This document shows positions 4,143 to 36,501 of a stretch of 64,000 bases of DNA, in pieces. Source of the DNA: a filamentous cyanobacterium ESFC-1. Its GTDB lineage: Bacteria; Cyanobacteriota; Cyanobacteriia; Cyanobacteriales; Spirulinaceae. The stretch is taken from positions 1-64,000 of the forward strand of contig KB904822.1 of NCBI GenBank assembly GCA_000380225.1. Reading direction: 5' to 3'. The notes below the pieces were generated by a model. That model saw nothing but the letters and a program-made list of their open reading frames with translations. It searched no databases and was not told the DNA's origin. Within the stretch, counting starts at the first letter, position 1; each line of letters begins with the position of its first letter. The translations under genes and the position numbers were made by a program.

Positions 4143-4160
4143 GCATTAGTTATTCCATGA

Positions 4161-5452: not shown

Positions 5453-5487
5453 ATCTGTTAGAAAATCAATCACTTTTTGGCTAAAAC

Positions 5488-7230
5488 TTATGGTATTGCT
5501 GACCATACTTTAGTAAAGCTATAGGCTGACATTGATAGAGTCCGTTGGCGTTGCTGAATTACGGTATGAAAATGAAAAATAAACAATCTTGAAGATGGCT
5601 TATTCAATAGTTTAGCAAGTGCCAATAAATACAAATCATGTTCAAAATAAGTAACACCATTAGGTTCAAATACAGTCAAGAAGCAAGACTTTGAGTATTG
5701 CCTTACAGAATATCCAGAAGGACGAGTTTTACTATTTCCGCACAAATCTGGTCGGCTACTGGCATTGGTTGAGCAAACCTTATGAACAATTTTTTTCCAT
5801 TCTTGAGCATCTTTGCTTTTCCAAATACTAACTAAGCTTCCAACTTGAGGAGAACGAGAACCGCTTTTGCTAATTCCATATCGTTTAGCAATATCGCTAA
5901 TTTGATCGAGCAAATTATCAATTAGTTCTGTCCAAGAATCCTTAGAAAAATTTGGAAGACTTTTATCGATTCGACCTGTTGTAAATTGACTACCGCGAAA
6001 CACACTACCGCGTCTAAAACTATGAGGTGGTCTTCGCCATCCGGGTCCCAATCCTCCTAAACGACTCGCTAGAATGAGTAACCGTCCTATCAACTGACGA
6101 TGGTTAAATAGACTGTCACAATCTACTCGAACTTCCCAAACCTCATTGGTAATAGATTTAGGTATATTTCGGTAAAATGTTTCTTGGCTCAGTTGAGACT
6201 CATCAGCAATAGGGTCAACTGCTTTGAGATAGCTGGTTAACGTTAGCTCCCCCGGACAACTCGTTCCCCCAAAAACTTTATCGGTGAGTGTTATGGCATC
6301 TTCTTTACTAAAATTGAGTAAAGCTAACCGAGTAAAATAACCCCGCAAACAAGCCCTCAATACTTGAGGACTCCAGCGATATTGCCCTACTTGTTCAACC
6401 TTATTTTTTTGGACTTTATGGGTCACAACTGTGGGCTTCATTCCCCTAAGTTTCAACTTCCACATTCCTTTAGGAATCTCCCTTGCAAAGCGACCAAAAC
6501 CCGAAGCCGTACCGCGACCCACTCCTTGCTCCCTTAGCATCGTTTCTAGAGCCTCACAGAACCATTTTTCTTGGGTTTGCGAGAGTGGGTCTCGTACAAT
6601 CACTCTGACACGATATCGTGTAGGTGCAATACTACCACGAGCCAAAGCAAAATTTTGTATATTCTGTGGCTTTGGAGATGCTTCTTGCCACTGAATTCCT
6701 AATTTATCGCGACTTTTTTTGTCAGCGAAAATCTGCCATTCTTGTTGAGGATTCAAAGGATAAGGTTTTAGGTTTTGAAGGGGTAGGGTTTCAAAACGCA
6801 CCTTTAGCGGTTGCCAACTTTTCCAATCTTTTGTTACTAAACTCTGCCAGAATTTTTGCTCATCTGAAGTAAAATTACTACGATTTTGGCGTAACCAATG
6901 TAAAAATGCCCCTCGTATACTTGAACCCGGAACGCAAGGAACACCGCCAATTTGTGCGGGTAAAATTCCTCCTTCGGGGAAGCTACCACTCCCCACTTGA
7001 ATCGGACTAATGACTTGTAGATTACTGACGCTAATTTGCGTCGGTAAGGGACGTTTAGGGACTTTTCGATTGGTTGCAGTTAGTCGAGGAGCAGGTTGAA
7101 CTGTACCATCCCAATCATCTTTTATCTTGGGAATATCACTGGTTAGCGGAACCCATCCTTTTTCGTCATCAGGGTTATCAGTATTGACAGTGTACCACGG
7201 GGGTAATTCTGTGGGTAATAGTTCGGGCAT
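5488..7230 (-). CDS. Double-RAMP protein, Cmr6/Cmr1-like effector subunit
   Basis: This 580-residue protein is the last gene of the effector operon and would bind crRNA/target RNA in the Cmr complex. The first RAMP part has VSNLQVISPIQVGSG, then PGSSIRGAFL (about residues 100-110) and a glycine-rich loop GVGRGTASGFGRF near residues 235-247. The second part contains a further glycine-rich motif GGLGPGWRRPP near residues 390-400, as in Cmr1-type RAMPs. Standard III-B loci encode Cmr1 and Cmr6 separately. Neither is found elsewhere here, so this longer protein probably supplies both roles. Assignment to RAMPs is firm from the motifs. The Cmr6-Cmr1 fusion reading is inference. It lies 50 bp downstream of the cmr5-like gene. 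Confidence 0.8.
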   Translation of the reverse strand: MPELLPTELPPWYTVNTDNPDDEKGWVPLTSDIPKIKDDWDGTVQPAPRLTATNRKVPKRPLPTQISVSNLQVISPIQVGSGSFPEGGILPAQIGGVPCVPGSSIRGAFLHWLRQNRSNFTSDEQKFWQSLVTKDWKSWQPLKVRFETLPLQNLKPYPLNPQQEWQIFADKKSRDKLGIQWQEASPKPQNIQNFALARGSIAPTRYRVRVIVRDPLSQTQEKWFCEALETMLREQGVGRGTASGFGRFAREIPKGMWKLKLRGMKPTVVTHKVQKNKVEQVGQYRWSPQVLRACLRGYFTRLALLNFSKEDAITLTDKVFGGTSCPGELTLTSYLKAVDPIADESQLSQETFYRNIPKSITNEVWEVRVDCDSLFNHRQLIGRLLILASRLGGLGPGWRRPPHSFRRGSVFRGSQFTTGRIDKSLPNFSKDSWTELIDNLLDQISDIAKRYGISKSGSRSPQVGSLVSIWKSKDAQEWKKIVHKVCSTNASSRPDLCGNSKTRPSGYSVRQYSKSCFLTVFEPNGVTYFEHDLYLLALAKLLNKPSSRLFIFHFHTVIQQRQRTLSMSAYSFTKVWSAIP

Positions 7231-7280
7231 AGTGAAGAATCTCCTAAATGATGAATTGAGAGAATTTGTATTATGAAACT

Positions 7281-7724
7281 TTATACGTCTTGCCCATTTG
7301 CATCCTTAATTCGCATTGTCCAAAACTGGATTGTATCGGCAATTTGTAGTAATAATTCAATCAACAACGTTTGTTGGTTAAAATTAAGCTTTTGATAACG
7401 TTCTTGAAATTCTTTTGTTGTCATATCAGCATTAATGCCTAAATCATTACCGACGATATTACATAAAACGATACGAGCAACAGCCCAAGCAAAATATCGT
7501 TTTGCTTCATCTGAACCAATATCATTAAATTCAGGAATTACACCACCAATCAAGCGGAGCGATCTGGACATTGCCCAAAAACGTTCAACTCCCCAAGTCG
7601 AAACATAACTCGCAATGTTACTAGCGACTCCTTGCCACTTTTTGAGATTTTCGGTGTCTTTGCCGCGTTCCAATTCGCTGAAAACTTCGCGGTCTAGTTC
7701 ATAAGATTTGACGTTATCGGCCAT
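7281..7724 (-). CDS. cmr5: Small helical subunit, Cmr5-like
   Basis: This 147-residue protein is predicted to be almost all helical, with the conserved-looking core WGVERFWAMSRSLRLIGGVIPEF and a second helical part ending in LLIELLLQIADTIQFWTMRIK. Position between cmr4 and the double-RAMP gene, small size and helical content fit the Cmr5 (Cas11) small subunit that lines the crRNA-target duplex. Sequence conservation in this family is low, so the call rests mostly on context. It is 48 bp downstream of cmr4 and shares its operon. Confidence 0.65.
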   Translation of the reverse strand: MADNVKSYELDREVFSELERGKDTENLKKWQGVASNIASYVSTWGVERFWAMSRSLRLIGGVIPEFNDIGSDEAKRYFAWAVARIVLCNIVGNDLGINADMTTKEFQERYQKLNFNQQTLLIELLLQIADTIQFWTMRIKDANGQDV

Positions 7725-7772
7725 AACAGTTTTTTTTTGACAATAACTACAGGAAAAATTAACGAACTTAGA

Positions 7773-8666
7773 TTAAGTTGGCGTACTCACTGGAGTAGGA
7801 GCCATTGCTTTGATTTCAATGCGTCCATAACCTACACTCCAGAGTCCTCCTAAATAATGTTCTTGATGGAGAAACTTTGACCATTGATCGAGGTTTTCTG
7901 CATGACCGCGTGTTGTCCAAGCAAATAAGAAAACCGCACCCGGAGGAAGCCCCTCAACCGCGAATAAGTTTTTGACTAAGCTACCATCGTCGCCATTTTC
8001 ATCATCGTTATTGTTATCGTTGTTTTGAACGTTTTGGTTTTCCAAATTGCCGTTGGCGCTGGCATTGTTTAAGAGTTCATCGTAATCTTTGAGGCTAACT
8101 CTGGGTTGACGAACTAAACCCATTTCTACCAAAAGATTAATACTGTCATCGGGAACAACAATGCGACGTTTTGCTGGAATTTCGGTTGGTGTTGGTAATT
8201 CCCCTGGCCAATGTTCAACATTGGTGAGTTTGAGCCAACGCAGATATACTGTTTGCTCATGCAGTTCCTGTGCGGTTACATAAACTGTTTCGCTGTCAAA
8301 TGACAGTACGTCCTCACCGCGTAGCTGTTGACAGCGATTAATCCAAGTCGGACAACTGACCCACCAATTGCCGTAACCCAAAACATGAATCGGCCACCAT
8401 ACCGGCCACCCCCAACTTAAACCAAGATAGCCCGGTGAAGGATTATCGCGATCGCCCCCAAACCAATTTTCCACAAAATTAGGATAATTCGATGAAGTGG
8501 TGGCACTTTCCCGTAATGCCCCCCGTAGCGAACTCCCTGGAATAGCCGGGGAATTATCCGGTAAGCGAAAAACAGGGTTGTTGTTGCCGCGACTACTGCT
8601 GTCTGCGCCGCCGATGTGGACGGGTTCGCGACAGATTAACCATTCAAGACCAGCTTTATTTGTCAT
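7773..8666 (-). CDS. cmr4: Cmr4-like RAMP, backbone subunit with apparent Asp-to-Asn change
   Basis: This RAMP of about 297 residues should form the repeated backbone of the complex. It has PVHIGGADSSSRG, then NNNPVFRLPDNSPAIPGSS and LRGAL (about residues 25-52), and a C-terminal glycine-rich loop LGGLWSVGYGRIEIK. In Csm3 and Cmr4 the loop reads IDSPVIRDP or VDLPIQR, where the Asp cuts target RNA every 6 nt. The aligned position here is Asn. The acidic, Asn-rich stretch around residues 205-228 looks like a disordered insertion. I chose the second ATG (8666), which gives a shorter overlap (11 bp) with cmr3; an ATG five codons earlier at 8681 is possible. Confidence 0.85.
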   Translation of the reverse strand: MTNKAGLEWLICREPVHIGGADSSSRGNNNPVFRLPDNSPAIPGSSLRGALRESATTSSNYPNFVENWFGGDRDNPSPGYLGLSWGWPVWWPIHVLGYGNWWVSCPTWINRCQQLRGEDVLSFDSETVYVTAQELHEQTVYLRWLKLTNVEHWPGELPTPTEIPAKRRIVVPDDSINLLVEMGLVRQPRVSLKDYDELLNNASANGNLENQNVQNNDNNNDDENGDDGSLVKNLFAVEGLPPGAVFLFAWTTRGHAENLDQWSKFLHQEHYLGGLWSVGYGRIEIKAMAPTPVSTPT

Positions 8667-9702
8667 TATCTCGATCCTCAAATAACCATAAATGTCCGTA
8701 GCCTAATGTGTGGCGATAATAAGAATCGGGCAGGGGGCCCGATTCGGTTAGGGGTGCTTTATCTCGCCACAAATAAACCGCCCCCGCCGGAGTCAGCCAT
8801 TCCCCAGGCGTGAGCCTAGAGATTTGCTGCACAGGTGTGTCGTCTTGGGTAACAGCCAGTTTTGTCCAAGTTTGCCAAGCTTCTCCTTGGTCAGCCGCAT
8901 AAGCAGCAACCTGAGTAGAATCAGGATAAGGCAGCGAGACTTTTTCTTGGTCTTTTTGCCATAATGCTCCCGTCAACAAAACTGCTCCTGTAGCTTGGGT
9001 GCATTCTTGCGTTAGCCAGCGATCGCGAACTTGTCTTTCTGGCAATGGGTCTATGATGACAGGTGTTCCCCCAGCTCCCAAACAACTCCAACGGGATGGT
9101 ATGTAAGTTTCAGTGGTTGAGTCTAGGACTTCTTGAGCGCGGTCATCGATAATTTTGACCAAAATAGACCAACCGGGTTTGAGTAGGGTGGTCATTTCTG
9201 CAAAGAAGCCCCCTTCTTCACTGACCTGAAAATTGTCGCGTTGGTTGTGACTCAGGGTCAAAGTTTCCCAAGGCAAAGGCTGGAGAGACGGTTTCGGTAA
9301 AACCTTTTTAGCCCACAGGCTTTTTAGCTCAGTACCGCTAATTAAATAACGCCCACCCACTAACTCTAAGTCTTGTTTTTGATGTTCGGGAGATTGGGTT
9401 TGCCAAGATTGACTTTGTTCGTCCCAAAGCAAACGATAAATGACTTCGGGTTTTTTGGGGTCGCCATCATCGAAGTTCAGACCATAAACAGGTAAAGGAA
9501 GTGTTACATAAATCTCGCGACTGCTTTGTTGATACCAAAACGGCCCCCAAAGCTTATAGGGTTTTGTCAAACCCAGACAAGCGGCAAGATGATGACCGTT
9601 GGGCGGCCAGCGACAACCCACTTGACCGCTATTTTGACCAACAGGGGTAAGATTCCCAAATGAGAGGCTTCCCGATGGTGTGATGGTGTACCATCCAGTC
9701 AT
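8656..9702 (-). CDS. cmr3: Cmr3-like RAMP subunit
   Basis: This 348-residue protein matches Cmr3 (Cas5-like), which caps the complex at the crRNA 5-prime tag next to Cas10. The N-terminal part has GSLSFGNLTPVGQ and WPPNGHHLAACLG, like the proline-rich segment after the first strand of Cmr3. The C-terminus has HTLGYGHLWLFED, a glycine-rich closing strand. The order cas10-cmr3-cmr4 is the normal III-B order. It is 85 bp downstream of cas10 and its end overlaps the start of cmr4, indicating translational coupling. Confidence 0.85.
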   Translation of the reverse strand: MTGWYTITPSGSLSFGNLTPVGQNSGQVGCRWPPNGHHLAACLGLTKPYKLWGPFWYQQSSREIYVTLPLPVYGLNFDDGDPKKPEVIYRLLWDEQSQSWQTQSPEHQKQDLELVGGRYLISGTELKSLWAKKVLPKPSLQPLPWETLTLSHNQRDNFQVSEEGGFFAEMTTLLKPGWSILVKIIDDRAQEVLDSTTETYIPSRWSCLGAGGTPVIIDPLPERQVRDRWLTQECTQATGAVLLTGALWQKDQEKVSLPYPDSTQVAAYAADQGEAWQTWTKLAVTQDDTPVQQISRLTPGEWLTPAGAVYLWRDKAPLTESGPLPDSYYRHTLGYGHLWLFEDRDNDK

Positions 9703-9787
9703 TTAATTTCCTCCAGGTTTTAAAAGTTGAAGCACATACTGATGGCATCGGTTTCAAAAGGAGCATAATCCACAGAGCAAAACTGTG

Positions 9788-12046
9788 CTAGCTTTGTGTC
9801 TGAGCGACGGTTTTAGTGATTGACTGTACCCATTTTTCTCGTTCTCGTTGTTGACGAGCTAAGAAGGCTTTGAGACTAATCCAATCTAACCACCATTGCC
9901 AATTATTAATCACAGAGGCGTATTTGCTTCGTCCCACGCGCTCAACTGTTGGCCAATCTAAGGGAATGCCTACACTTTGCAATAAGGGGGTGAATAGTTC
10001 CCCAACAATGCGTACTGAGGAGTGATTGCGGAGGCGGGTACTTTCCACATAAGCCAGTAGTTTTTCCCAACGATTGAGTGCTGTTTTGCCTGTAACGTCG
10101 GGTTCAATGGGCATCAGCAGTTCCCACAGTTCCCAAGGACAAATCCATTGCAGAGATTGACCGCTATTAAATAAGACGCGAACACAAACCCGATTGCGAC
10201 CTGCTTCTTTGGCTGCTTTATAAGCTTGATTTAAGCCGCGATGCCACAGGGATTGAGGGATACGCCGTTGAGCGATAACAATGCCCAAGCTAAAGTCCAT
10301 TTTTTGACCGGGAACGGGGTAGATTTCGTCGCCATACTGAACCCAGCCATCACTGAATGAGTCTAGAGGTTGAGTGATGGGGCTGGTTTCACCCCGCCAT
10401 AAATGATAAAGGTCATTGGTTAGCGGAACACACTCAGTCAGCGGCCCGAGTAAAAGAAAGTCATCGCCTCCGGCAAAGATAACTTTGCCTTGGTGATAAT
10501 CTTGAACCAAGGGATAAAGTAAACGATTCCACTTGTTGAATAAAATTGATAAGTCTAGGGTATGGGGCAGTTCGAGTTGACGGGAGCGATCGCGTGGTAA
10601 GGAGGGAGCGTCGCAATCTAAGTTATACAAGGCTTTTTGCTCTGGGGTAGGATGCCAGTTTGACCAAGGCAAGTTTAAGTCAGTATATTGATCGCCAGCT
10701 AACCATTTACCCATATTGTCGCCGTCTCCGCGCCAGCCGACCGTCCACTCAATGGTACTTTCCCATCCTTGCGGTCTTTGGGAATCTCGATCCCATGCGG
10801 TTTTGTGGTCTTCAGGGATATTACGCCGTTCTAAGACCCGTGGGTGATGTAGCTTGATATCGAGGTTATCAATCTGGGGCATTCCCCAGGCGCTTTTGGG
10901 AGGCGTGTCTCCTAGATGTTTTTTGAGGGGTTCGAGGGCATGATTCCAAACTTCAGGATGATCTCGGACAACATCAACAATCCAAGTGGCGGCGATCGCG
11001 CTACGATCTGGGAAACGTTCCCAAGGACAACTAGGCGGGGTAGGGCAATCTGGCCACAAGGATTGTAGCGTTGGTTCGATAATATCGGGAACTGAAGCTA
11101 ACCTTTTAACTAACTCAATGCTGTTGAGGCGATCGCTTTCTGAAAACAAGCCGGATAATTTGGATTTTTGGGCAATACTTTGCCACCATTGGTCAAGTTG
11201 CTGTCTGGGGAGTCCCCAAGTGCCACCGCGATCGACTTGTCGCAAGCCAGGATGCCAAATGGATAAGTTACCCGCACTAGGGCTAGTCGGCCCTCCCCAC
11301 CAAGTACCTTGCCAACCGCGACCGAGTTTGCGGGCTTCTACGCGCTGATGAAGTGTAGCCAGGGTATCTTGTAGATTTTCGCGGTCATAAGGGGCTGACT
11401 CGGCATAAACAGTCCACTGATATTGATTATCGGCGTGGATAGTACGCCAACCGACACCACCGAGATGGCGACTATAGTTGATGGTCGCGTTTTCAAGGTG
11501 TTGGGTAAATCTCTCCCACTCTTGGTTTAAAGTATTTTCAAACTGCTTTAGCCATTGGTCATCAGGACATAACCCTGTAATGACATTGGGTAACTCTGCT
11601 TGCCAAAATAAATCTGCATCACAACTGTTACCGTTCAACCAGTTAAGGAGAGGACTGGATTGATGCAACGGTAATAAGACATGACCGCCCTCGGCTTGCC
11701 AGCGATAGATTAAAACCGCACTAAGGTAATGGCACAACCACGACCCAACGGCCCAGTCTCGCAAGCGTTGACCGCCGCCTAAAAAGCTTTGAACGGGGCC
11801 AAAGGTCAGCACCGCGATTTGACCTAAATGGCTAAAGTCTTGGGCTTCTATTTGGTCGCAAGCTTCTACTGTTGCTCCGCCTCCCCAAGCATAGCGGCTA
11901 CGGAGATGGGGGGAGTTTTGCCATGTTCCACTAACGGGATGAATGGAAAATGGTGCGCGATCGCGAGGTAGTGTATTAGGTACGGCATAAATTTGTTGCT
12001 GTTGAATGAGATAATCGGCAGCGTTGGGATGATTGGTTGGGTTCAT
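9788..12046 (-). CDS. cas10: Cas10/Cmr2 without HD domain, with intact GGDD cyclase motif
   Basis: This 752-residue protein is the large subunit. The N-terminal palm contains LTFGPVQSFLGGGQRLRDW and AVGSWLCHYLSAVLIYRWQ, corresponding to the IGPVQSF...RDLWAGSYLLSYL signature of Cmr2. The second palm has VIFAGGDDFLLLGPL with GGDD near residues 526-529, the active site that makes cyclic oligoadenylate or related nucleotides upon target recognition. No N-terminal HD nuclease motif is seen, so DNA cutting by this subunit is not expected. The start overlaps the end of the Csm6-like gene by 4 bp (ATGA), coupling the signal maker to its likely receptor. Confidence 0.93.
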   Translation of the reverse strand: MNPTNHPNAADYLIQQQQIYAVPNTLPRDRAPFSIHPVSGTWQNSPHLRSRYAWGGGATVEACDQIEAQDFSHLGQIAVLTFGPVQSFLGGGQRLRDWAVGSWLCHYLSAVLIYRWQAEGGHVLLPLHQSSPLLNWLNGNSCDADLFWQAELPNVITGLCPDDQWLKQFENTLNQEWERFTQHLENATINYSRHLGGVGWRTIHADNQYQWTVYAESAPYDRENLQDTLATLHQRVEARKLGRGWQGTWWGGPTSPSAGNLSIWHPGLRQVDRGGTWGLPRQQLDQWWQSIAQKSKLSGLFSESDRLNSIELVKRLASVPDIIEPTLQSLWPDCPTPPSCPWERFPDRSAIAATWIVDVVRDHPEVWNHALEPLKKHLGDTPPKSAWGMPQIDNLDIKLHHPRVLERRNIPEDHKTAWDRDSQRPQGWESTIEWTVGWRGDGDNMGKWLAGDQYTDLNLPWSNWHPTPEQKALYNLDCDAPSLPRDRSRQLELPHTLDLSILFNKWNRLLYPLVQDYHQGKVIFAGGDDFLLLGPLTECVPLTNDLYHLWRGETSPITQPLDSFSDGWVQYGDEIYPVPGQKMDFSLGIVIAQRRIPQSLWHRGLNQAYKAAKEAGRNRVCVRVLFNSGQSLQWICPWELWELLMPIEPDVTGKTALNRWEKLLAYVESTRLRNHSSVRIVGELFTPLLQSVGIPLDWPTVERVGRSKYASVINNWQWWLDWISLKAFLARQQREREKWVQSITKTVAQTQS

Positions 12047-13554
12047 TGGAGATTATCCATGAGGTTTTGGGCTTTTTCGCGATATTTATTAGCACGATCT
12101 TCAACGTCTGTTTCAATGTCTGCTAAGTCAAGAATGTAGTGGAAGTGGTCGATAGCTTTTTGAGACGGGTGTTTAAGAGCAGTGACACTCCCTAATTTTT
12201 GGGTCTGTTCATCGAGGATTTTGTCAATGCGATCGCCTCGGAGATTGTGATATAGCGAATTACGAAGGTCGTTAAATCCTTCTTGTTTTTTGACATCTGT
12301 TTGTAACTGCCAATTACTGATGTAGAATTGCTTGACAAATTTGTTCCAATGGGGGTCAGTAATTTTATCAACTTGTAAATTACTATCATTAAAGCGTACT
12401 TTAATTGTTCCTTTAGATAATAAATCTCTGGTTAACGCTGTAATTCCCAATAAATTGACTTTGACCGTGCTATCAGCTACTAAATCAGCATTTTTCCACT
12501 GGTATTGTCCTTTACTCTGCTGTTCTATCAATAAATAAATCGCCAATTCAAATGCACCCGCCATGCGTAGATACCAGTGCATCCATTGACTGCGTTCGCG
12601 AAAAGCTTGTTCGCTCCACAGCGCGATCGCCAAACGCTCCAAAATTTTATCTCGTTCGTCTGATATGTTCCGATCTTCGATGTTAAGAGAAACTGCTTTA
12701 TCGAGATAGGTAAGGTCATCTTCGAGTTGCTGATCTTCTATCTGATGCCCTTTCAGCAGTTCTAATGCACCACCAAAATCTTGTATTTTGACCAACTCGC
12801 GAATTTGGGGAACTCTCAATCGCCATTGCCAATGTTCGCCTGAATGATAGGGATCACTTATTCCTTGCTCGGATAAGTAGATAAACTCAATTTGATACTG
12901 ATCGAGTTTCTTTTCTATTCCCCATAGATATAATGCACTACTTAATGCTGGTGTACCGCTACTATGTTGAACAAAAAGCCCATCGATTGAGATCAGTTCA
13001 TCGTCGCAATTTTTGAATTGGATAGTTTTTGCTAGGGTTTCGTCTTCTTCTAAAATAATGTTGGTTTTTAAGAAAGGTGTAATCGCCTTTGCCATACCTT
13101 CCCAATCGGCTGCACCATATTCAAGATCGTGTGGAATTTCAAATTCTTTAAGACAGCAATTGATTCCATTCTTGTCACACCATTGCTGTAAGATATTTTT
13201 CCACCAAATCCCGTCTCTAATAACTATTTCGTTCCAAACACTATCATCTCGCTGGGGCTGACTTGCCCATTCTACTTGATTAGTGAGAATAATAAGCCAG
13301 TGTAAATTGATATCTTTTTTGTTTTGGTTAGCAAGCTTTTGTATGAGGATTTTTTCAGTATTAGCAATCAAAGGAAACTTGACTTTAAGAGTCCCCTTTT
13401 CAAATTCTTCTTCAAAAAAATCTCGATTATCTAAAATATCGTCGAGGTCTCTATCTTCGTTGAAAAGTTGATAGCCATCAACAAACTCAGAACTTTTATT
13501 GGCTGCTTCAATATCGCTACTGCCTAGAACTTGAATAACTAGATAATTGTTCAT
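12043..13554 (-). CDS. Csm6-like CARF-HEPN ribonuclease
   Basis: This 503-residue protein has an N-terminal Rossmann-like half with VQHSSGTPALSSALYLWG (about residues 194-211), the SSGTP-type loop known from the CARF domain of Csm6, which binds cyclic oligoadenylate. The C-terminal helical half carries LRNSLYHNLRGD with an R-x4-H HEPN catalytic motif (Arg about 429, His about 434). The expected action is collateral RNA cleavage when Cas10 makes the activator. Its frame ends within the first codons of cas10. No transmembrane segment is seen, so it should be cytosolic. Exact subfamily (Csm6 or Csx1-like) is uncertain. Confidence 0.82.
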   Translation of the reverse strand: MNNYLVIQVLGSSDIEAANKSSEFVDGYQLFNEDRDLDDILDNRDFFEEEFEKGTLKVKFPLIANTEKILIQKLANQNKKDINLHWLIILTNQVEWASQPQRDDSVWNEIVIRDGIWWKNILQQWCDKNGINCCLKEFEIPHDLEYGAADWEGMAKAITPFLKTNIILEEDETLAKTIQFKNCDDELISIDGLFVQHSSGTPALSSALYLWGIEKKLDQYQIEFIYLSEQGISDPYHSGEHWQWRLRVPQIRELVKIQDFGGALELLKGHQIEDQQLEDDLTYLDKAVSLNIEDRNISDERDKILERLAIALWSEQAFRERSQWMHWYLRMAGAFELAIYLLIEQQSKGQYQWKNADLVADSTVKVNLLGITALTRDLLSKGTIKVRFNDSNLQVDKITDPHWNKFVKQFYISNWQLQTDVKKQEGFNDLRNSLYHNLRGDRIDKILDEQTQKLGSVTALKHPSQKAIDHFHYILDLADIETDVEDRANKYREKAQNLMDNLQ

Positions 13555-17184: not shown

Positions 17185-18117
17185 TTAAAGTTCTAGAGAC
17201 TCAGATTTTCGTCGAGTCATTGGAATTTTTCCTTGCGGTTGATGGTCATCCAACTCCATCCTTTCTCCTTGATTCGCCCTTCGTAGGGTCGGCAAATCCC
17301 GTTCGGGTTGGTATTGAATAGAACGGTGTTGGAGAAGTTTAGGGAAACTGCTGACTCTCAACCGTGTACCTGGAAAGCAAACCCCCGCGTAACTGTAGCT
17401 GATTCCTTGGATAGTACCATCATTGGTGATGCGACTGCGGACTGAAACCCCTTGTTTTTGTAAGCGCCTTACAAACTCGGTGAGGGTGGGTTGGTCAGCA
17501 CTGGCATCATCAATCAAATCTTGAAGGCGATCGCTCACAATAGGAAATGGCGGGGTATCCCGTTCCCCAGCCTCGTAGTCCAGCATTCCTTTCTTGTATC
17601 GCCGGATTTGACCGTGGGCGGGACTACGGCGGGAGTTGGGTTGGCTCGAAGCAATATGGGTGAGATTGTAAGCAAGTTCTAATTGTCTGAGAATTTCTTG
17701 AAAGCGCAGCATTTCCCAAGAATTAGAGGTTCTTGTGCCATCTATAGCGATGGCGTTAGCAACAATATGAACGTGGTCGTGGTCGTGAGGCCAATCATGT
17801 CCGGGATCGTCTCTGTGATGGTCGATGACCACATATTGGTTGTAGGTATATCCCAAGCCCTTCACTACCGCCGTGGCAATTTCAGCTTTAGTGCGGTCAT
17901 CGACTTCGCCATCTGTCGGGGCAAAACCAATCATAAAGTGTTTACAAGGTTTTTGGGTAGAGCGCCTTTGGGCGGCACAGTTTTCAAATTCAGGGGTAAG
18001 TTCGGTAGCCACATCTCCAGCACAATTGCCGCCAATAATTCTGGGTTTTTTGTCGGGATGTAGCAAATAGCCGAATAAACCGCCGAAACAAGTTCCCGTT
18101 GAAATTTGACCAATCAT
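17185..18117 (-). CDS. Relaxase/mobilization nuclease
   Basis: This protein of about 310 residues would nick one strand at oriT and lead plasmid transfer. It begins MIGQISTGTCFGGLFGYLL, typical of the relaxase family, and has the metal-binding motif HDHDHVHIVANAI (about residues 110-122), plus IGFAPTDGEVDD before it. A Tyr that could attack DNA cannot be chosen with confidence. The protein ends soon after the relaxase domain, so no helicase or primase part is fused. I chose the ATG at 18117 because it overlaps the stop of the mobC-like gene as ATGA (18114-18117); an upstream start at 18138 would add seven residues. Confidence 0.88.
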   Translation of the reverse strand: MIGQISTGTCFGGLFGYLLHPDKKPRIIGGNCAGDVATELTPEFENCAAQRRSTQKPCKHFMIGFAPTDGEVDDRTKAEIATAVVKGLGYTYNQYVVIDHHRDDPGHDWPHDHDHVHIVANAIAIDGTRTSNSWEMLRFQEILRQLELAYNLTHIASSQPNSRRSPAHGQIRRYKKGMLDYEAGERDTPPFPIVSDRLQDLIDDASADQPTLTEFVRRLQKQGVSVRSRITNDGTIQGISYSYAGVCFPGTRLRVSSFPKLLQHRSIQYQPERDLPTLRRANQGERMELDDHQPQGKIPMTRRKSESLEL

Positions 18118-18503
18118 GGTTGGTTTTTGACTCCACAAAGTTCCAAACGAAGTTGTTTAATAAGGGCTTGGGTACGCTCGATATGGGCTTGCATTTGAGT
18201 CAATATTTCTTCACTGGATAAGGCAGAGGTGAGGGGCTGTTGAGTATTAGGAAACGTCGAAGTCTTTTGATTGAGGGCGTTGGCGAGGTTTTGTAAAGAA
18301 CGAGCAATCTCGCCGAACTCCGTGTAAGCTTGCCAGTTGACTTGAGGTACTCTCGACGGTTGGATGGGAAGCCCTTGCAGTTTGCGAGCGATATAGGCGC
18401 TGCGACTCAAACCCACCGAAGCGGCAGCGCGATCCAGTTTTTCGAGGTCGGCGGGTCGATAACGCAGGGTTACAGTTTTGGTTTTCTTCTCCGGTTTGGA
18501 CAT
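18114..18503 (-). CDS. MobC/NikA-like mobilization accessory protein
   Basis: This 129-residue protein has a basic N-terminus, then TVTLRYRPADLEKLDRAAASVGLSRSAYIARKL cut here into its parts: a TVTLRY beta strand, a helix, and the SRSAYIARKL helix of a ribbon-helix-helix fold. A helical C-terminal half follows (about residues 55-122). Such proteins bind oriT and place the relaxase. It is translationally coupled to the relaxase downstream. An oriT is therefore expected in the 347 bp upstream of its start. Confidence 0.8.
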   Translation of the reverse strand: MSKPEKKTKTVTLRYRPADLEKLDRAAASVGLSRSAYIARKLQGLPIQPSRVPQVNWQAYTEFGEIARSLQNLANALNQKTSTFPNTQQPLTSALSSEEILTQMQAHIERTQALIKQLRLELCGVKNQP

Positions 18504-18850
18504 AGTTGGGATAAAAAATCTCGGTCAACAGGGGTGATTTCTCCTGGGTCAAATCCCGGTTTGCGGCCAAGATGCTAGGGGGAGATGAGGAAAATGTATT
18601 ACATTGACACTGCTGGCTCTCTCCTCTCAGGATAGAAAACACCGCCCAAAAGTGCAAGGGGTAGCGAAGGCTGTACTTTAGGCAGTATAGGGCTTTATGC
18701 AGTGTTAGTGCAGTAGTAGTGTTCTGAGGTTGCACAAAATAGGGGCAGTTTTTAGGAGTTTGGGGAGAGTCAATAGTTTCTTTTTGCGTAGTATTAATGT
18801 AGCTTGACTGCACCGTCAAAGCGTTGATAATCAGGAGTTGAAAAAAAGTA
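18504..18850. other. Divergent intergenic region, candidate oriT
   Basis: This 347-bp region lies between the leftward mobC-relaxase pair and the rightward gene at 18851. It has repeated TGCA-containing segments around 18650-18740 and G-rich stretches, but I could not fix a nic site or a clean inverted repeat. Location next to mobC is the only real support for oriT. Confidence 0.35.
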
Positions 18851-19279
18851 ATGAAGAAAAAATCATTTCGGTTGAACTACACGGTTGAATCTGATAGTTG
18901 TGATGGTCGTTTGGTTCGTTTCTTGGACGAGCTTGAATTTCTGTCTCGCAAAGAAGCCATGATGAAAGCGGTTCGTTCTTACTGGCTACCCTTGGCTTTA
19001 GAAAATGAGAATTTGGATTCACGTAGTTTAGAAAAAGTGGGCTACGAAGCCGTATTGGATTTACTCAAACAGGCAAACTATATCTGTACAGTATTGAAGT
19101 TAGACCGTACTCAGTTAGGGATGGGGTTGGTTTCGTCTCCTGGGACGATGGAAAGCCAGTCAGCCAAGGTATCTTCTTCTCTCTCCGAAACGAAAGTCGA
19201 AAAAGTTAATGAAATGGACGCGATCGTTCGGGATTATCAGTACGAGGATTTGGGGTTTGATGATTGGCCGAAAAATTAG
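18851..19279 (+). CDS. Hypothetical plasmid protein
   Basis: This 142-residue protein has a basic start (MKKKSFRLNYTVE), a helical middle with LEFLSRKEAMMKAVRSYWLPLALE that may be a ribbon-helix-helix-like or related DNA-binding helix pair, and an acidic tail ending YQYEDLGFDDWPKN. An AGGAG lies a little upstream of the ATG. I do not recognise the family. Its stop codon TAG lies inside the first copy of the TTAGGGTGCA inverted repeat, so the end of its message would carry that structure. The neighbours suggest a role in plasmid maintenance, without direct evidence. Confidence 0.7.
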   Translation: MKKKSFRLNYTVESDSCDGRLVRFLDELEFLSRKEAMMKAVRSYWLPLALENENLDSRSLEKVGYEAVLDLLKQANYICTVLKLDRTQLGMGLVSSPGTMESQSAKVSSSLSETKVEKVNEMDAIVRDYQYEDLGFDDWPKN

Positions 19280-19580
19280 GGTGCAGTTAGAGAAGCAGCA
19301 AACCTTGATATATCGTTACTGCTTGCACCCTAACAACTGGGTTAATGATGGGTTCAAACCCATGTCCTGTGAGCGTTTTGGGTCGAACATATCTATAAGT
19401 TAGGGTGCAAGTTAAGAGCCTGAAACCTTGATGTACCGTTACTACCTGCACCCTAACAACTGGGTTAAAGATAGGTTCAAACCCTTGTTTCGTGGGCATT
19501 TGAGGTTGAAAATAGCCGCGAGTTAGGGTGCGATGAAAGAGCCTCAAACCCCGATATACCGTTACTACTTGCACCCTAAC
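19276..19580 (+). repeat. Three 124-bp tandem units with TTAGGGTGCA/TGCACCCTAA inverted repeats
   Basis: Inverted-repeat copies lie at 19276-19334, 19399-19457 and 19523-19580, spaced 123-124 bp. Each has arms TTAGGGTGCA and TGCACCCTAAC around about 38 bp that contain AAACC-YY-GATATA-YCG and GTTACT. The DNA between copies is also similar (AACTGGGTTAA, GGTTCAAACCC). Related single copies occur at 36442-36501 and 36968-37026 in the opposite orientation. Iterons, operators or RNA structures are all possible. Confidence 0.9.
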
Positions 19581-19780: not shown

Positions 19781-20059
19781 ATGAGCAAAGGACAGATTAA
19801 CATCATGCTGCGGTTTCAGCCGACGCGGGATTCGAGTGATGCAGTATTGTTTAACTGGCTGCGTCGTAGCTCTTTGTTACCGTTGAAAGAAGCTGTATTG
19901 CTGCCATGTCGGGCATTTTGGAATCCCATCGCGTTTCGGGTGATGGGGAAACCCCGTTCTGAGTGCTATCGCGTGTGTCAAGATTCTCTAGCAGCCCTCA
20001 ACGCCCAAATCGAGTTGGTTCGGGTGCAATTAAAGCATTTAGAGTTGGGGGGTGAATAA
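19781..20059 (+). CDS. Small protein preceding ParM-like gene
   Basis: This 92-residue protein (start MSKGQINIMLRFQPTRDSS) has a central stretch LLPLKEAVLLPCRAFWNPIAF and a helical C-terminus. The LKEAVLLPCRAFW segment resembles the KEAMMKAVRSYW helix of the protein encoded at 18851, suggesting two related small proteins. Its stop overlaps the start of the ParM-like gene as TAATG, so they are co-translated. By analogy with segregation operons it may be a DNA-binding adaptor, but no known adaptor family is recognisable. Confidence 0.75.
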   Translation: MSKGQINIMLRFQPTRDSSDAVLFNWLRRSSLLPLKEAVLLPCRAFWNPIAFRVMGKPRSECYRVCQDSLAALNAQIELVRVQLKHLELGGE

Positions 20060-21204
20060 TGCCTCGGCGTAAAAATCCGACAGTGGTTTTAGCGGTGGAT
20101 TTTGGCGGGTCAAGTACAAAGGCGTTTTATTCAGTATCGGGTAAGATTGGCTCGATGATGATGGGGCCCGAAGTGGTGAAAATTCCCGAAAGCGCGATCG
20201 CGACCTATGAAGCCCAAAAGTTAGGGTCGGGATTGCCCGAAAATGAAGCCTGGGTCAGCTACGACAATGAGTTTTATGCCGTGGGCTACCTTGCAGCTTC
20301 CCAATTGGCGGGAATTTCACGATTATCCGAACTCAAATACATCCATGCAACCCTCAAAGTTTTAGCAGTTTTGTGGGTTATTGCATCTCGCGAACCGGAA
20401 CTTGATGGTAAATTTGACCTGGCTATCTCTACCTTACTTCCCGGAAACGAATTTGCAGATCGCGGTAAGTTTGAACGAGCATTAAAAGCGGCATTAGCGC
20501 AATTTGAAACGCCGGTCGGGACTTTAGAGGTAAAAACTATCCATTTTACCTGTTTACCCGAAGGTGCAGGGATTTACGCCGCTTATCGTCAACAAGTCGG
20601 TTCTGCTATCTTCAATGAAACGATCGCCTTTTTTATGTTGGGTTATCGCAATCTGAGCATTCTGATTAGCGATCGCGGTTCAATCGGTAGTGGTGCTAAA
20701 TCTTGCGACTTGGGTATGGTCAAAATGCTAGAACGAGTGCAAGAGCGAACCTCTGGCTTAGAATCGGATCGTTTATTGACCGCGATCGCCCAAGCGGGGG
20801 ATGAAGTCGAACGAGAGGTCTTGTGGTCGGTGTGTCGCAGTCGGGATGTAGCTCAACGCAGCGAAGAAGTAGACGCATTAGTTGATGCGGTGGTCGCAGC
20901 CAGAAACGAATATATCGCCATGATTCAAAACTGGATGGGGGAAGTTTTACCCGACCGCATAGACCGCATTGTTTTCTCCGGTGGGACGGCTCAATACCTC
21001 AAAACTGAACTGGAAAAAATCTATCCGTTTACCCCTCTAGAATGGCATGGGGGCGTAGAAGTGCCTCAAGAATACGATTTCCAACATAACGGCGGTCATC
21101 GTTTCGCCGATGTTTGGGGTGCTTTTGTGCGCTTGGCTGCTGTGAGCGAAATAGCGGAAAATCGCGAAGTACAAAGAGGCAATTCATGGCTGATATTCAT
21201 TTGA
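20059..21204 (+). CDS. ParM/StbA-like actin-family segregation ATPase
   Basis: This 381-residue protein has the actin/Hsp70 nucleotide-binding pattern. The phosphate-1 loop is VVLAVDFGGSSTKAFY (about residues 9-24), there is an inner segment with LGYRNLSILISDRGSIGSG (phosphate-2-like region near residues 195-215), and the adenosine motif is RIVFSGGTAQYL (about 314-325). ParM-type proteins form filaments that push plasmid copies apart. The small protein before it may be an adaptor and the P-loop protein after it overlaps by 19 bp. No ParR of known type is obvious. Confidence 0.82.
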   Translation: MPRRKNPTVVLAVDFGGSSTKAFYSVSGKIGSMMMGPEVVKIPESAIATYEAQKLGSGLPENEAWVSYDNEFYAVGYLAASQLAGISRLSELKYIHATLKVLAVLWVIASREPELDGKFDLAISTLLPGNEFADRGKFERALKAALAQFETPVGTLEVKTIHFTCLPEGAGIYAAYRQQVGSAIFNETIAFFMLGYRNLSILISDRGSIGSGAKSCDLGMVKMLERVQERTSGLESDRLLTAIAQAGDEVEREVLWSVCRSRDVAQRSEEVDALVDAVVAARNEYIAMIQNWMGEVLPDRIDRIVFSGGTAQYLKTELEKIYPFTPLEWHGGVEVPQEYDFQHNGGHRFADVWGAFVRLAAVSEIAENREVQRGNSWLIFI

Positions 21205-22070
21205 TTGATGGTGAAAAAGGGGGCGTAGGCAAATCATTATTCGCTCGTTTGTTGTTGCATTATTGGTTGACCCAATTAACCGATGCACCCAAGCCCGTCC
21301 TGTTTGATACCGATGCGTCCCGCAAGGATGTAGAACGCTTTTATGGTAATCATGTAGATTGCGGAGATGTTCGCTTTTCTGATGATGATGAAAAGTTGGT
21401 GGTAGCTGACGAGATATTTCAGACGGCGTTACTCGGTCAGTCGGTTGTGGTGAACTTAGGGGCTTCAGTGTATGAAGTCGTGCGGGATTGGATTGTCTCG
21501 AACGGTTTAATTGAACTGGGGAAGATTGCAGGGGATACCAAAGCACGGCAAAATAGCCCCATTTTCCAAGCCTTAGTCGAGCGTAAATCGATGGCGGCTG
21601 ACCCCAATGCCAGTAGTAAAGCAGCGACTCCTAAAATCGAGGGAGTGCGCTTTTTCAAGTGGTTTGTTTGTTCGGGTCAGCAAGATTCCCTTGCTCCTTT
21701 CCATCAAAGTTTAGAGGAAATAGGGGACCAAATGCCGCATATCCTGGTTGAAAATCGCTTTCTTTACGATGACCAGCAATGGGAAGCAATTGAGGCAGAA
21801 TTAGCACCTAAACTCAAGCAATATAACGTCAAATCAATTTATATCCCTAAATTACTCAAAACCGACCTGAAAATGGTCTTAGAAGGGGGATTAACTTGGG
21901 CAGAAGCCATCAAAGCGCGATCGCTCTCCTTAATGGCACGACAGCGTTTGTTTATGTTTTGCGAAACCGCTAACACCCAAATCGCCGAGGCTTTCGCCAA
22001 TTTAGACTCCAACACCAACACCAAAAAAACCGGGACGAAACAAACGGTGAGCGCCAATGGTAAGAAGTGA
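21186..22070 (+). CDS. ParA/MinD-like P-loop protein
   Basis: The 294-residue product begins MADIHLIDGEKGGVGKSLFARL with a deviant Walker A motif GEKGGVGKS (about residues 8-16). VLFDTDASRKDVERF follows as the switch-like Asp segment, and SVVVNLGASVYEVV as a probable Walker B-like strand. It resembles StbB-type or ParA-like ATPases found beside ParM-like genes on plasmids. I chose the internal ATG at 21186 because the Walker A then sits at the normal distance from the N-terminus. An upstream ATG would add 24 unlikely residues that overlap the ParM-like gene. It overlaps the next gene by 14 bp. Confidence 0.78.
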   Translation: MADIHLIDGEKGGVGKSLFARLLLHYWLTQLTDAPKPVLFDTDASRKDVERFYGNHVDCGDVRFSDDDEKLVVADEIFQTALLGQSVVVNLGASVYEVVRDWIVSNGLIELGKIAGDTKARQNSPIFQALVERKSMAADPNASSKAATPKIEGVRFFKWFVCSGQQDSLAPFHQSLEEIGDQMPHILVENRFLYDDQQWEAIEAELAPKLKQYNVKSIYIPKLLKTDLKMVLEGGLTWAEAIKARSLSLMARQRLFMFCETANTQIAEAFANLDSNTNTKKTGTKQTVSANGKK

Positions 22071-22728
22071 CGAAAATACCTCCTCATCGATACTCGAAGA
22101 ATTACTCGAAAATCGCAGCGAGGAGTTCAAAGAGCGAGTTCTCAAAGTGGTGGCTCGTCTCAATTTAGGTGTAGATGACCCGGCGTTTTTGTTTGCGGTT
22201 GCCTTGGGTCAATTAGAAGTCTTGCTGGAAGATTCGCCCAAGTCCATGGCCCGCTTGTTCAAAGCTTGGACGAGCGAACTGCGTAAAACCTTGGATTTAG
22301 CTGAAACCGTATTGGTGGCCGAACAAAAAGAAGCGATCGCGAAAGCTGCTACATCCCTGATTCGCCGTCACGAACAAGTGGAATCCAGTCGGTTGTGGCG
22401 CTCGATTGTACCCGCCGCCGGGATTGTCTGTGTCGCTCTGGGATTGGGCTTTTTGGCTGGTATCACCGTCCCGCCCTACTTGCAAGGAGGATTTGTGGGA
22501 GAACCCGTGCGTTTAACACTATCCCAAGCGACGGCGTTGGATTGGGCAACAAGTTCAGAAGGTCAGTTTGCTCAAAAACTGATGGAATGGAATGCCGGAT
22601 ACCTTGATGATTGCGAAGAACAAGCGGCGGCATTGGGGGTGGAATTGAACCTGGGAATGCGTCGGGCTTCGTCGGGATTTTGCGTACTTTGGGTACAGCC
22701 TCCCCAAAAGCGTTCTTGGTCACAGTGA
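22057..22728 (+). CDS. Membrane protein with helical N-terminal half
   Basis: This 223-residue protein has a long helical cytosolic part (about residues 8-105, rich in Leu, Glu and Lys), one transmembrane segment (about 117-138, IVCVALGLGFLAGITVPPYL) and a C-terminal domain of about 80 residues with CEEQAAALGVELNLGMRRASSGFCVLW, holding two Cys. It ends the ParM-ParA-like operon, with a 14-bp overlap at its start. Anchoring the segregation machinery, or a role in transfer, are possible. I know of no function for it. Confidence 0.72.
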   Translation: MVRSDENTSSSILEELLENRSEEFKERVLKVVARLNLGVDDPAFLFAVALGQLEVLLEDSPKSMARLFKAWTSELRKTLDLAETVLVAEQKEAIAKAATSLIRRHEQVESSRLWRSIVPAAGIVCVALGLGFLAGITVPPYLQGGFVGEPVRLTLSQATALDWATSSEGQFAQKLMEWNAGYLDDCEEQAAALGVELNLGMRRASSGFCVLWVQPPQKRSWSQ

Positions 22729-23439: not shown

Positions 23440-25485
23440 ATGTCAGCTACAACTTCTCCAACTTATCTCGAACAGGCATTTCATGATGGTCATGCCGCGC
23501 TGATAGGTGAAGGAAAAAAAGAGCGCATTCACTATATTGCCGCAGATCATTCTGAAAAGTGGTCTGATCCAGAAGAAAAGGTTAGGGCTGAATTTTGGTC
23601 TGAGTTAATCTACAAATATGAATACGATCCAACTCGCATCAAGTTTGAAGTAAATGTACCACGGCGTACTCCAAATGACTACGCTGATGTGGTGATTTAT
23701 AAAGATGACGAGTGTAAAGACCCTTATTTCGTTTTTGAAATTAAACGAGCAGATATCAGTGATGCTGAGTTTGCTCAATCGATTGAGCAAGCCTGTGGTA
23801 ATCGGGCCAGTCTTGGCGCTCCCTTTTGTGGTGCAATTGCAGGTTTAACTCGTCGCCTGCTGCGTTTTGACAAGTTTCCGCCAGGTGAACGAGATCGGAA
23901 CCATCTTACAGATATTCCAAAACGCTACGGTAAACCTCCTGCATGGCGATTTTATAAAAACAAACCAGGACACGACCTCTCTGCTATTCCCCGTGAAGAT
24001 TTGCGTTCTGCTATTCGTAAATGCCATCAAACTCTTTGGGAAGGTGGTCGCCGCAGTCCAATTGCTGCATTTGGTGAGTTTTGCAAGATTGTTTTTGTTA
24101 AATACCGTGACGAAAAAAATCCAGATTTGGAAGACGATCAACCCTATGCCTTTCAGCGTCGGGATGAGGAAAGCAGCGATGCGCTTTCTAAACGGATTTT
24201 GAAGCTTTACAAGGCTGAGCAAGAACTCGAACCAGGAGTTTTTACAGATCAAATTAATGTTGATCCTCCTGTGTTAGCTCAGGTTGTTGAACACCTGGAA
24301 GCAATCTCTCTAGATCGCACTGAACTAGACACTAAAGGAGTTGCTTTTGAAGAGTTCATGGGGGGCTTCTTCAAAGGAGATTTTGGACAATATTTTACGC
24401 CCCGTGAATTGATTGCCTTCTCGGTTGAAATTCTGAATCCAGAACGTAAGCACTTAATTCTCGATCCAGCGTGTGGTTCAGGGGGCTTTTTGCTCTATGC
24501 CCTTGACCATATCCGTAAAGAAGCTGATCGTCGTTATCCGAAACATAGAACTAATGCTCGCCAGAGTGTAAGTCATTATAAGTATTGGCATGATTTTGCA
24601 GAGCATAATCTATTTGGCATCGAAATTAATGAAGAACTTGCCCGTGTCGCCAAGATGAATATGATCATTCATGACGATGGTCATACAAATATCGTGGGAC
24701 ATGATGCTCTAGATTTTCTGGAAAGAATCACAGCCGTTAAACCCGATCTCACTCCCGATAAGTTTGATTTGATTTTGACAAATCCGCCATTTGGTTCAGT
24801 AGTCAAAGCAACTGAAAAGGACAAGGGTTATCTTAATCAGTTTGATCTGCGGTTTTATCTCAATAAGTCCACGACAGGGACAAAGCCAGATGAGTCTAGC
24901 CAAAGTGAGAGAAGCGCAAAACGAGGTGCGAAAGCAGTCAAAGCTCGTACCAGTGTTAAAACAGAAATTTTGTTTATTGAACGGGTTCGTTCGTTTCTAA
25001 AACCGGGGGAAGGACGAGCTGCGATTGTCTTGCCAGATGGCATTTTAACCAACTCTTCTTTGCAAGGGGTACGAAATTGGATATTGTCTCGTTTCCAAAT
25101 TTTGGCAGTGGTGAGCTTGCCCCAATTTGCTTTTGCTCACTACGATGCAGGTGTGAAAGCCAGTATTGTTTTTCTACGGCGATTAAAGGATGGAGAAGTT
25201 GTACCCGACGATCAGCCGATCTTTATGGCATTGGCTGAAAATATTGGTTACGACGCAACGGGACGAAAGACTTTTGATGTAACGGTTGAAAGTGAAACTC
25301 CAGAGCGAGAGAAAGTAGAAAGGCATAGCTGCGATCTCTTTGATTACCGAGTTTATTTTGAGTGGAGTACAGTTAATCCCAAGGAACCAGGATGGAGTGA
25401 ACGCCATCGTGAAATTATTCCCGATACGGGGTTAGTGGCTCAGTGGCGCGAGTTTCAAAGAAATCCAACCCCTTTTTTCGTCTAA
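23440..25485 (+). CDS. Restriction-modification fusion: PD-(D/E)xK nuclease plus N6-adenine methylase
   Basis: This 681-residue protein joins two activities. The N-terminal part is like the HsdR N-terminal nuclease: YADVVIYKDD (Asp about 83) and YFVFEIKRAD (Glu-x-Lys about 101-103) form the PD-(D/E)xK core. A helical bundle follows (about 195-320), then the HsdM-type methylase with FMGGFFKGDFGQYFTP, motif I LDPACGSGGFLL (about 342-352) and motif IV ILTNPPFGS (about 446-453). With the specificity subunit next to it this resembles BcgI-type two-subunit enzymes, where one protein cuts and methylates. No separate hsdR gene is present. The next gene starts 43 bp before its end. Confidence 0.9.
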   Translation: MSATTSPTYLEQAFHDGHAALIGEGKKERIHYIAADHSEKWSDPEEKVRAEFWSELIYKYEYDPTRIKFEVNVPRRTPNDYADVVIYKDDECKDPYFVFEIKRADISDAEFAQSIEQACGNRASLGAPFCGAIAGLTRRLLRFDKFPPGERDRNHLTDIPKRYGKPPAWRFYKNKPGHDLSAIPREDLRSAIRKCHQTLWEGGRRSPIAAFGEFCKIVFVKYRDEKNPDLEDDQPYAFQRRDEESSDALSKRILKLYKAEQELEPGVFTDQINVDPPVLAQVVEHLEAISLDRTELDTKGVAFEEFMGGFFKGDFGQYFTPRELIAFSVEILNPERKHLILDPACGSGGFLLYALDHIRKEADRRYPKHRTNARQSVSHYKYWHDFAEHNLFGIEINEELARVAKMNMIIHDDGHTNIVGHDALDFLERITAVKPDLTPDKFDLILTNPPFGSVVKATEKDKGYLNQFDLRFYLNKSTTGTKPDESSQSERSAKRGAKAVKARTSVKTEILFIERVRSFLKPGEGRAAIVLPDGILTNSSLQGVRNWILSRFQILAVVSLPQFAFAHYDAGVKASIVFLRRLKDGEVVPDDQPIFMALAENIGYDATGRKTFDVTVESETPEREKVERHSCDLFDYRVYFEWSTVNPKEPGWSERHREIIPDTGLVAQWREFQRNPTPFFV

Positions 25486-36429: not shown

Positions 36430-36441
36430 AAAAAAAGAAAA

Positions 36442-36501
36442 GTTAGGGTGCAATGATGTGTTGATATACAAGGGTTAGAGCCGTCTTTGCTGCACCCTAA
36501 C
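36442..36501 (-). repeat. TTAGGGTGCA inverted repeat before the primase gene
   Basis: Arms GTTAGGGTGCA (36442-36452) and TGCACCCTAAC (36491-36501) enclose 38 bp with the TGTATATCA variant of the GATATATCG core. On the strand of the gene the element ends 12 nt before the primase ATG. It could act as operator or as an RNA hairpin at the translation start. Confidence 0.88.

Follow-up and report, generated by a model that had tools for sequence, protein, structure and literature searches.

A ParM-like actin and a TraL-like ATPase encoded in one overlapping operon beside relaxase genes on a plasmid-like cyanobacterial contig

The operon and its upstream region

The stretch of DNA analysed here (the window, 64,000 nucleotides) corresponds to bases 1-64,000 of the 135,349-base contig KB904822.1 from the filamentous cyanobacterium ESFC-1, whose genome comprises 5.63 Mb in three contigs. 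It contains a plus-strand operon of four open reading frames (ORFs), 19781-20059, 20059-21204, 21186-22070 and 22057-22728, whose coordinates agree exactly with the overlaps of 1, 19 and 14 bp given in an earlier reading of the letters alone (the original prediction). That reading had placed a ParM-like and a deviant Walker A protein in one operon with a membrane protein, an arrangement confirmed by the family matches and by a hydrophobic segment in the last product. Facing the operon, on the minus strand, lie genes for a mobilization (MOB) relaxase of 317 aa (17185-18138; Pfam Relaxase, 1.2e-21) and a NikA-like relaxosome accessory protein of 129 aa (18114-18503; Pfam NikA-like, 6.1e-10), and the plus strand then carries, in order, a long adaptor gene, a set of repeats, a short adaptor gene, parM, a traL-like gene and a DUF6753 gene. 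The operon is therefore divergent from the relaxase genes (17185-18503), as are the TraKLM/StbABC operons that flank an origin of transfer (oriT); in the R751 reference layout, traI and traJ diverge from traK-traL-traM. From position and layout, the interval 18504-18850 between the two gene sets is the presumptive oriT region. The relaxase and NikA-like genes, the long adaptor and two distant copies of the repeats had escaped the original prediction.

The product of 20059-21204 is a ParM-like actin homologue. It scores 28.4 bits against Pfam ALP_N (cut-off 26.3), as would be expected of the ParM in a type II ParMRC system, and it matches a PHROG 'partition protein' (1.5e-8). CorM (PDB 9rmi), a cyanobacterial actin homologue whose partner is CorR, is its nearest solved relative and its sole PDB match below 0.001 (9.3e-7), and a match to the NCBIfam 'filament morphology actin-like protein FcmB' (2.6e-9) falls below the cut-off of that model. 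In an alignment of 76 family members the phosphate-1 Asp is present in 74, with gaps in the other 2, and the GG adenosine motif in all 76. The phosphate-2 motif, MLGYRNLS in the window protein, is altered: Met occupies the position of the phosphate-2 Asp in 75 of the 76, whereas CorM retains the Asp in a pairwise alignment with the ParM-like protein. The phosphate-2 position, like the Walker-B position of P-loop proteins, coordinates magnesium and matters for hydrolysis. Since the 76 include ParM proteins with no TraL in the same stretch, the Met is not specific to the operon.

The gene at 21186-22070 encodes a P-loop protein with the deviant Walker A motif GEKGGVGKS and an Asn at the Walker-B position. 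Its sole NCBIfam match is TraL (PRK13886; 2.1e-10), at 40 bits far below the model's cut-off of 360, and no Pfam family, ParA included, matches it up to an E-value of 1; on these two grounds a ParA segregation ATPase was ruled out. R751 TraL finds it by blastp (3e-8), and finds a relative at locus L001 (loci are denoted by L and a number) with 6e-11 over 228 residues. Plasmid relatives number 38 records, all less than 60% identical, and 25 of them are annotated 'mobilization protein' or 'MobD'. Within the family, the TraL model recognizes the members at L001 and L141, that at L065 weakly and that at L116 not at all; a TraL profile search of the PDB gave nothing firm (best E-value 0.022, to P-loop proteins). 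These comparisons firmly argue for placing the protein in the TraL/MobD/StbB family of oriT-side operons and not among the segregation ParAs; StbB, TraL and MobD have indeed been treated as one family (PMC3098194). The original prediction had instead proposed a hybrid segrosome: actin-like and ParA-like motors, anchored at the membrane, would together drive segregation. It is true that the deviant Walker A lysine, kept in 87 of 94 TraL-family members, is common to ParA and MinD, but the family matches point to the transfer side and nothing marks the protein as a second segregation ATPase, the layout and the relatives are those of transfer operons, and StbB is dispensable for stability in R388 (PMC3098194); we regard such a merger of two segregation types as very improbable. 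The kinship to Stb arrangements, which had also been suggested, is borne out both by the TraL/StbB-like ATPase and by the divergence from the relaxase genes.

The last gene, 22057-22728, belongs to Pfam DUF6753 (4.1e-75), and its product has one strongly hydrophobic stretch near residues 117-138. N-terminal helices and this one hydrophobic segment are followed by a C-terminal domain, in which two Cys do not vary across an alignment of 34 relatives; the predicted structure is poor (predicted template modelling score, pTM, 0.30). A DDP motif, a long helical part and a hydrophobic segment are common to DUF6753 and TraM of the IncP plasmids (RP4/R751), the C-terminal domain being an addition of DUF6753, and hhalign relates the two at 70.9% (3.8e-5). 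When a hidden Markov model of DUF6753 was used, four of five TraM proteins scored above all 1000 shuffled TraM sequences and about 3,800 background ORFs, and NAH7 StbC scored above 300/300 of its own shuffles with the DUF6753 profile. With moderate confidence, and on the strength of these comparisons, DUF6753 is probably the TraM-like third gene of the operon. In L122, L123, L124 and L125 a DUF6753 gene is present, but neither TraL, ParM nor relaxase was matched in the stretch examined, and in L065, L137 and L140 a gene of about 490-560 aa follows DUF6753, the L065 copy having an AAA domain (5.4e-14).

Two ParR-like adaptors are encoded on the plus strand upstream of parM. The longer one (18851-19279, 142 aa) has an acidic and aromatic C-terminal tail (YEDLGFDDWPKN), which its shorter paralogue (19781-20059, 92 aa) lacks; the gene found after parM in relatives is of the same family as these two. 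A profile of 45 sequences, from which the window proteins were excluded because earlier seeds containing both had given circular E-values, detects them at 2.6e-25 and 3.1e-15, respectively, with 0 of 600 shuffles listed. The adaptor suspected earlier at 19781 is thus upheld as to family, but it is short and tailless and the fuller adaptor lies at 18851. The AlphaFold2 model of the 18851 protein, confident to about residue 90 (helices 17-27, 33-51 and 57-81) and mostly of low confidence beyond, would fit a ribbon-helix-helix adaptor with a flexible tail. Neither adaptor has a Pfam, NCBIfam or PHROGs match, a search of the PDB with the adaptor profile gave nothing firm, and the tie to ParR is drawn by analogy; in known systems ParR tails bind ParM (PMC5016525). 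Among unique adaptor C-termini, 58 of 75 are acidic and aromatic, as against 69 of 559 control ORFs of at least 150 aa in the loci. No acidic tail is found in the short adaptors of the window and of L109, in the second copies of L131 (7541-7963) and L154 (4018-4638, which seems to hold two adaptor-like domains), or in certain adaptors that are present singly, for example in L018-L022. L109 also has a long and a short adaptor, both after parM, and in L153 the adaptor precedes parM.

Between the two adaptor genes, three direct units spaced 123 bp apart (19276-19580) each contain an inverted repeat of 57-58 bp (TTAGGGTGCA...TGCACCCTAA): unit 1 at 19276-19333 (58 bp), unit 2 at 19400-19456 (57 bp) and unit 3 at 19523-19579 (57 bp, with one left-arm mismatch), all on the plus strand. 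Two further copies, on the minus strand, precede ORFs of the replication region: copy 4 (36443-36500) lies just before the first ATG of a candidate replication gene for a Prim-Pol/PriCT-2 protein (35548-36471, minus strand; Pfam Prim-Pol 2.3e-22, PriCT_2 2.7e-15), and copy 5 (36969-37025) just before an ATG of a 140-aa ORF on the same strand. The copies have a conserved, directional core. The exact pattern occurs four times in the window and never in 100 shuffles, and in the ESFC-1 genome it is confined to this contig, with no match for the reversed control; a genome-wide dispersed element was ruled out on that account. The three units that the original prediction had put forward as a centromere do exist, and as a candidate centromere or operator they could serve that role. 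In other plasmids, ParR of R1 binds 11-bp repeats and that of pB171 10-bp repeats (PMC9426499), the 9-bp repeats of R388 also occur at other maintenance promoters (PMC3098194), and the sites of pSM19035 overlap promoters of copy-number and maintenance genes (PMC5016525). Carrying as it does a relaxase, a Prim-Pol gene and partition genes, the contig is plasmid-like and we treat it as a plasmid; its ends have no shared overlap at the lengths tested, and circularity thus lacks support from them.

The operon in related genomes

A scan of genome contigs for DUF6753 yielded 54 loci; DUF6753 was matched in 84 of 291 related genomes and in none of 12 other genomes of ESFC-1's own family. By profiles seeded from the window and from plasmids and iterated on the data, parM, adaptor, traL and DUF6753 follow one another in this order on one strand in 43 of the 54, the other 11 being incomplete and several of them short or broken. 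A divergent relaxase gene lies upstream in 35 of the 43 complete loci; in L050 it is found downstream, on the opposite strand, and in 7 the stretch examined contains none. A 4-bp overlap joins traL to DUF6753 in 31 of these 43. The order in the window, with both adaptors and the repeats ahead of parM, differs from the usual one of the relatives, which is also that of the laboratory cyanobacterium Anabaena cylindrica PCC 7122 (L003). Contigs larger than 7 Mb carry 6 of the 54 loci (L026, L028, L029, L039, L063 and L066), five of which are complete, so the module is also present in chromosomes, perhaps as integrated elements. Two closely spaced TraL-like genes with a DUF6753 match downstream (2e-8 in L144) were seen in L142 (3923-5660), L145 (3869-5510) and L144 (3450-5540), from Trichormus, Anabaena and Paraburkholderia plasmids.

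Four loci (L116, L064, L141 and L143) have, upstream of traL-DUF6753, a gene for a helix-turn-helix (HTH)-like protein in place of parM and adaptor. Three of the four HTH proteins were scanned and received no Pfam or NCBIfam name, but a profile of all four matches IncP TraK and NAH7 StbA (hhalign, 89.7%), and the L141 protein matches NAH7 by blastp (7e-7). The same profile has no match in the window, where ParM and the adaptors are found instead of a TraK/StbA-type first gene. We then compared 85 rows with TraL and DUF6753, non-redundant at 95% TraL identity: 58 have ParM and adaptor, 8 have ParM without a detected adaptor, 4 (a lower bound, as the HTH profile was seeded from these very cases) are StbA-type, 13 have neither, and 2 are fragments of the broken L044. 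ParM and a StbA-type gene never occur together (0 of 85 rows), and the ParMR cassette appears to replace TraK/StbA in the operon. No relaxase was matched on the opposite strand in any of the 13 rows with neither gene, of which L059 and L134 have less than 350 bases upstream. The Walker-B position of TraL follows the partner gene: Asn occupies it in 76/76 rows whose locus includes ParM, and Asp in 4/4 StbA-type rows and in R751; among rows with neither, 8 show Asn, 4 Asp and 1 Ser, and the lone adaptor-only row shows Asn. In a quick TraL tree with long branches, three of the four StbA-type TraL proteins form a separate clade, so that descent accounts for part of this correlation; the fourth, from L141, is weakly placed among the ParM-linked rows and keeps its Asp.

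Upstream of parM (about 450 bp), repeats phased at 10-11 bp were detected in 21 of 60 non-redundant regions (p<=0.01). At this threshold four other lag pairs gave 0, 1, 1 and 0 of 60, and 10-11-bp phasing was found in 1/73 regions downstream of DUF6753 and 1/55 stretches within parM; single lags are raised elsewhere, in 5/73 regions downstream of DUF6753 at lags 8-9 and in 4/55 parM coding stretches at lags 14-15, which means that single lags can rise from other causes. Duplicated 10-mers exceed all 40 shuffles in only 18 of 51 relaxase-parM intervals. A conserved architecture of 58-60-bp inverted repeats in relatives was rejected, several other length classes being equally raised; the 60-64-bp class numbers 10 over 43 regions as against 3.4 expected, and the sole relative clearly resembling the window is L109, with two inverted repeats of 60 bp and no others of that arm length.

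These data also bear on whether the actin-like protein still segregates DNA or has given up that role for static filaments that serve transfer or cell architecture, as in the filament-morphology actin homologues of cyanobacteria. The Met at phosphate-2 and the matches to CorM and FcmB would suit static filaments; against them stand the phased, parC-like repeats in relatives, an adaptor detected in 58 of the 66 ParM-bearing rows, a relaxase near most loci and the conservation of the phosphate-1 Asp and the GG motif. We consider the loss of segregation improbable. The position of ParM beside a relaxase on a plasmid-like contig also sets it apart from CorM.

A proposed coupling of segregation and transfer

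The operon resembles several known systems and differs from each. (i) Like IncP traK-traL-traM beside oriT, it diverges from the relaxase genes and has a homologous TraL, but ParM and an adaptor stand in for TraK. (ii) Like R388 and NAH7 stbABC, a three-gene operon of the leading region with a Walker-type ATPase after a DNA-binding protein (PMC3098194), it is preceded by repeats that recur at other maintenance genes, as in R388, and NAH7 StbC scores above its shuffles with the profile of its third gene; unlike the ATPase here, however, StbB of NAH7 escapes the TraL profile. (iii) Like the ParMRC systems of R1, pB171 and C. perfringens plasmids, it combines an actin-like ParM with a small adaptor with a flexible tail and, in 21 of 60 regions, with 10-11-bp repeats, but here ParM and adaptor are joined to TraL and DUF6753, the phosphate-2 motif is altered, and in the window there are two adaptors and repeats of another kind. 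Deleting stbA in R388 raises transfer 50-fold and leads to plasmid loss, and deleting stbB abolishes transfer, StbA and StbB balancing stability against transfer (PMC3098194). In R1, ParM and ParR bind TraI and stimulate relaxase and transfer (PMC4949242), which makes coupling plausible.

The gene identities (of varying strength), the synteny, the absence of loci combining ParM with a StbA-type gene, the phased repeats of relatives and the Asp/Asn correlation, all of them computed, lead us to read the locus, with a probability of about 0.53, as an operon that flanks oriT on a mobilizable plasmid, akin to IncP traKLM and R388 stbABC, and in which segregation and transfer are coupled. The position of oriT and each step of binding and movement are what we infer from this. 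A type II cassette of ParM and ParR-like adaptor would have replaced the TraK/StbA first gene. The adaptor, putatively ribbon-helix-helix-like, would bind the repeats upstream of the operon, and its acidic C-terminal tail would dock to ParM filaments, which would separate plasmid copies. For transfer, TraL and the TraM-like DUF6753 would bring the plasmid with its bound adaptor, or its relaxosome, to the envelope, the pull of ParM and that of TraL being balanced as with StbA and StbB. The short tailless adaptor could compete with the long one for these sites, and through the additional copies of the repeat the same protein might regulate genes of the replication region.

The same genes could also be neighbours without coupling: a type II segregation cassette and a transfer pair, each of the ordinary kind, would both be placed beside oriT since leading-region genes enter the recipient first. 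The two parts do occur separately: ParM with an adaptor-family gene but no TraL-DUF6753 is found in the stretches L153, L155 and L156, whose records are absent from the 38 that match the window TraL (the L155 record has a TraL of the L116 type elsewhere), TraL-DUF6753 is also found without ParM, and the stb genes of R388 and its relatives lie in the leading region (PMC3098194). On the other side are the tight overlaps and constant order in 43 of the 54 loci, the absence of rows with both a ParM cassette and a StbA-type gene, a Walker-B residue that tracks the partner gene, in part through descent, and the interaction of R1 ParMR with the relaxase (PMC4949242). We think mere neighbourhood rather unlikely, though a serious alternative.

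Several observations weigh against coupled segregation and transfer, or against parts of it. (i) Fold searches with the adaptor model gave no meaningful match (best Foldseek E-value 1.4, best VIA-align Z 2.7). (ii) The upstream region of the window itself shows no 10-11-bp phasing (p 0.635), and a scan of 18480-18870 for inverted repeats of at least 8 nt within 60 bases found no oriT hairpin. (iii) The link of DUF6753 to TraM is modest, the fifth TraM, at 8.1 bits, falling below the best shuffles (10.2 and 8.2 bits). (iv) The StbA-type set is small (4), was seeded from the same proteins and includes L116, whose TraL misses the TraL model; the loci were collected mainly by DUF6753, and their frequencies are not unbiased. 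(v) Chromosome-sized contigs carry at least five of the 43 complete loci, for which plasmid segregation cannot be the role as they stand. (vi) Outside the window the contig encodes a second, ordinary ParA ATPase (contig position 124334-125137, or L016:4335-5138; AAA_31, 1.5e-33), so that ParM may not be the sole segregation system. (vii) The VirD4, TrwB and VirB4 families (PF02534, PF10412 and PF03135) have no match in the ESFC-1 genome; for these three families it thus lacks the coupling protein and VirB4 of a self-transmissible conjugative plasmid, and transfer would need a helper, the plasmid being at most mobilizable by that test. (viii) R388 from which the entire stb operon has been deleted shows unchanged transfer (PMC3098194).

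A bolder extension, which we offer as a speculation and hold to be doubtful, is that in cyanobacterial mobile elements one switch evolved that decides between inheritance and transfer. With ParMR swapped into a TraKLM/Stb operon, the change of Asp to Asn in ParM-linked TraL and of the phosphate-2 Asp to Met in ParM might have produced slow, nucleotide-locked partners, and the recurrent tailless second adaptor (window, L109, L154 and L131) might act as a release factor, allowing TraL-DUF6753 to take over the plasmid from filaments of ParM.

R388 StbAB and R1 ParMR had each hinted, via different proteins, at a link between segregation and conjugation. Here a single operon, present in many cyanobacterial genomes, encodes both sides, naturally occurring StbA-type loci offer a comparison, and a plasmid's choice between staying and leaving becomes directly testable. 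The operon also gives DUF6753 a probable role and may guide the annotation of 'MobD-like' and 'ParM/StbA' genes in cyanobacteria. Literature searches, made without most subscription papers and without preprints, found no paper that names DUF6753, none on a cyanobacterial plasmid with relaxase and ParM, and likewise none on CorMR. Among the matches listed, none for StbB, ParM, relaxase and oriT concerned cyanobacteria by title, and none for ParMR/CorM or MobD in cyanobacteria was on point; a search for ParM and TraL on cyanobacterial plasmids gave unrelated work only.

Defence genes on the same contig

The window carries, at 2811-13554, genes for Cas1, Cmr2/Cas10 and RAMP proteins that make up a CRISPR-Cas locus resembling type III-B. 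Genes of a DISARM-like defence (DrmD, DrmMI, DrmA and DrmB) lie at 57273-60485 of the window and at L013:634-15180, and with these and a type I methyltransferase-like gene (23440-25485) the plasmid looks like a carrier of defence functions.

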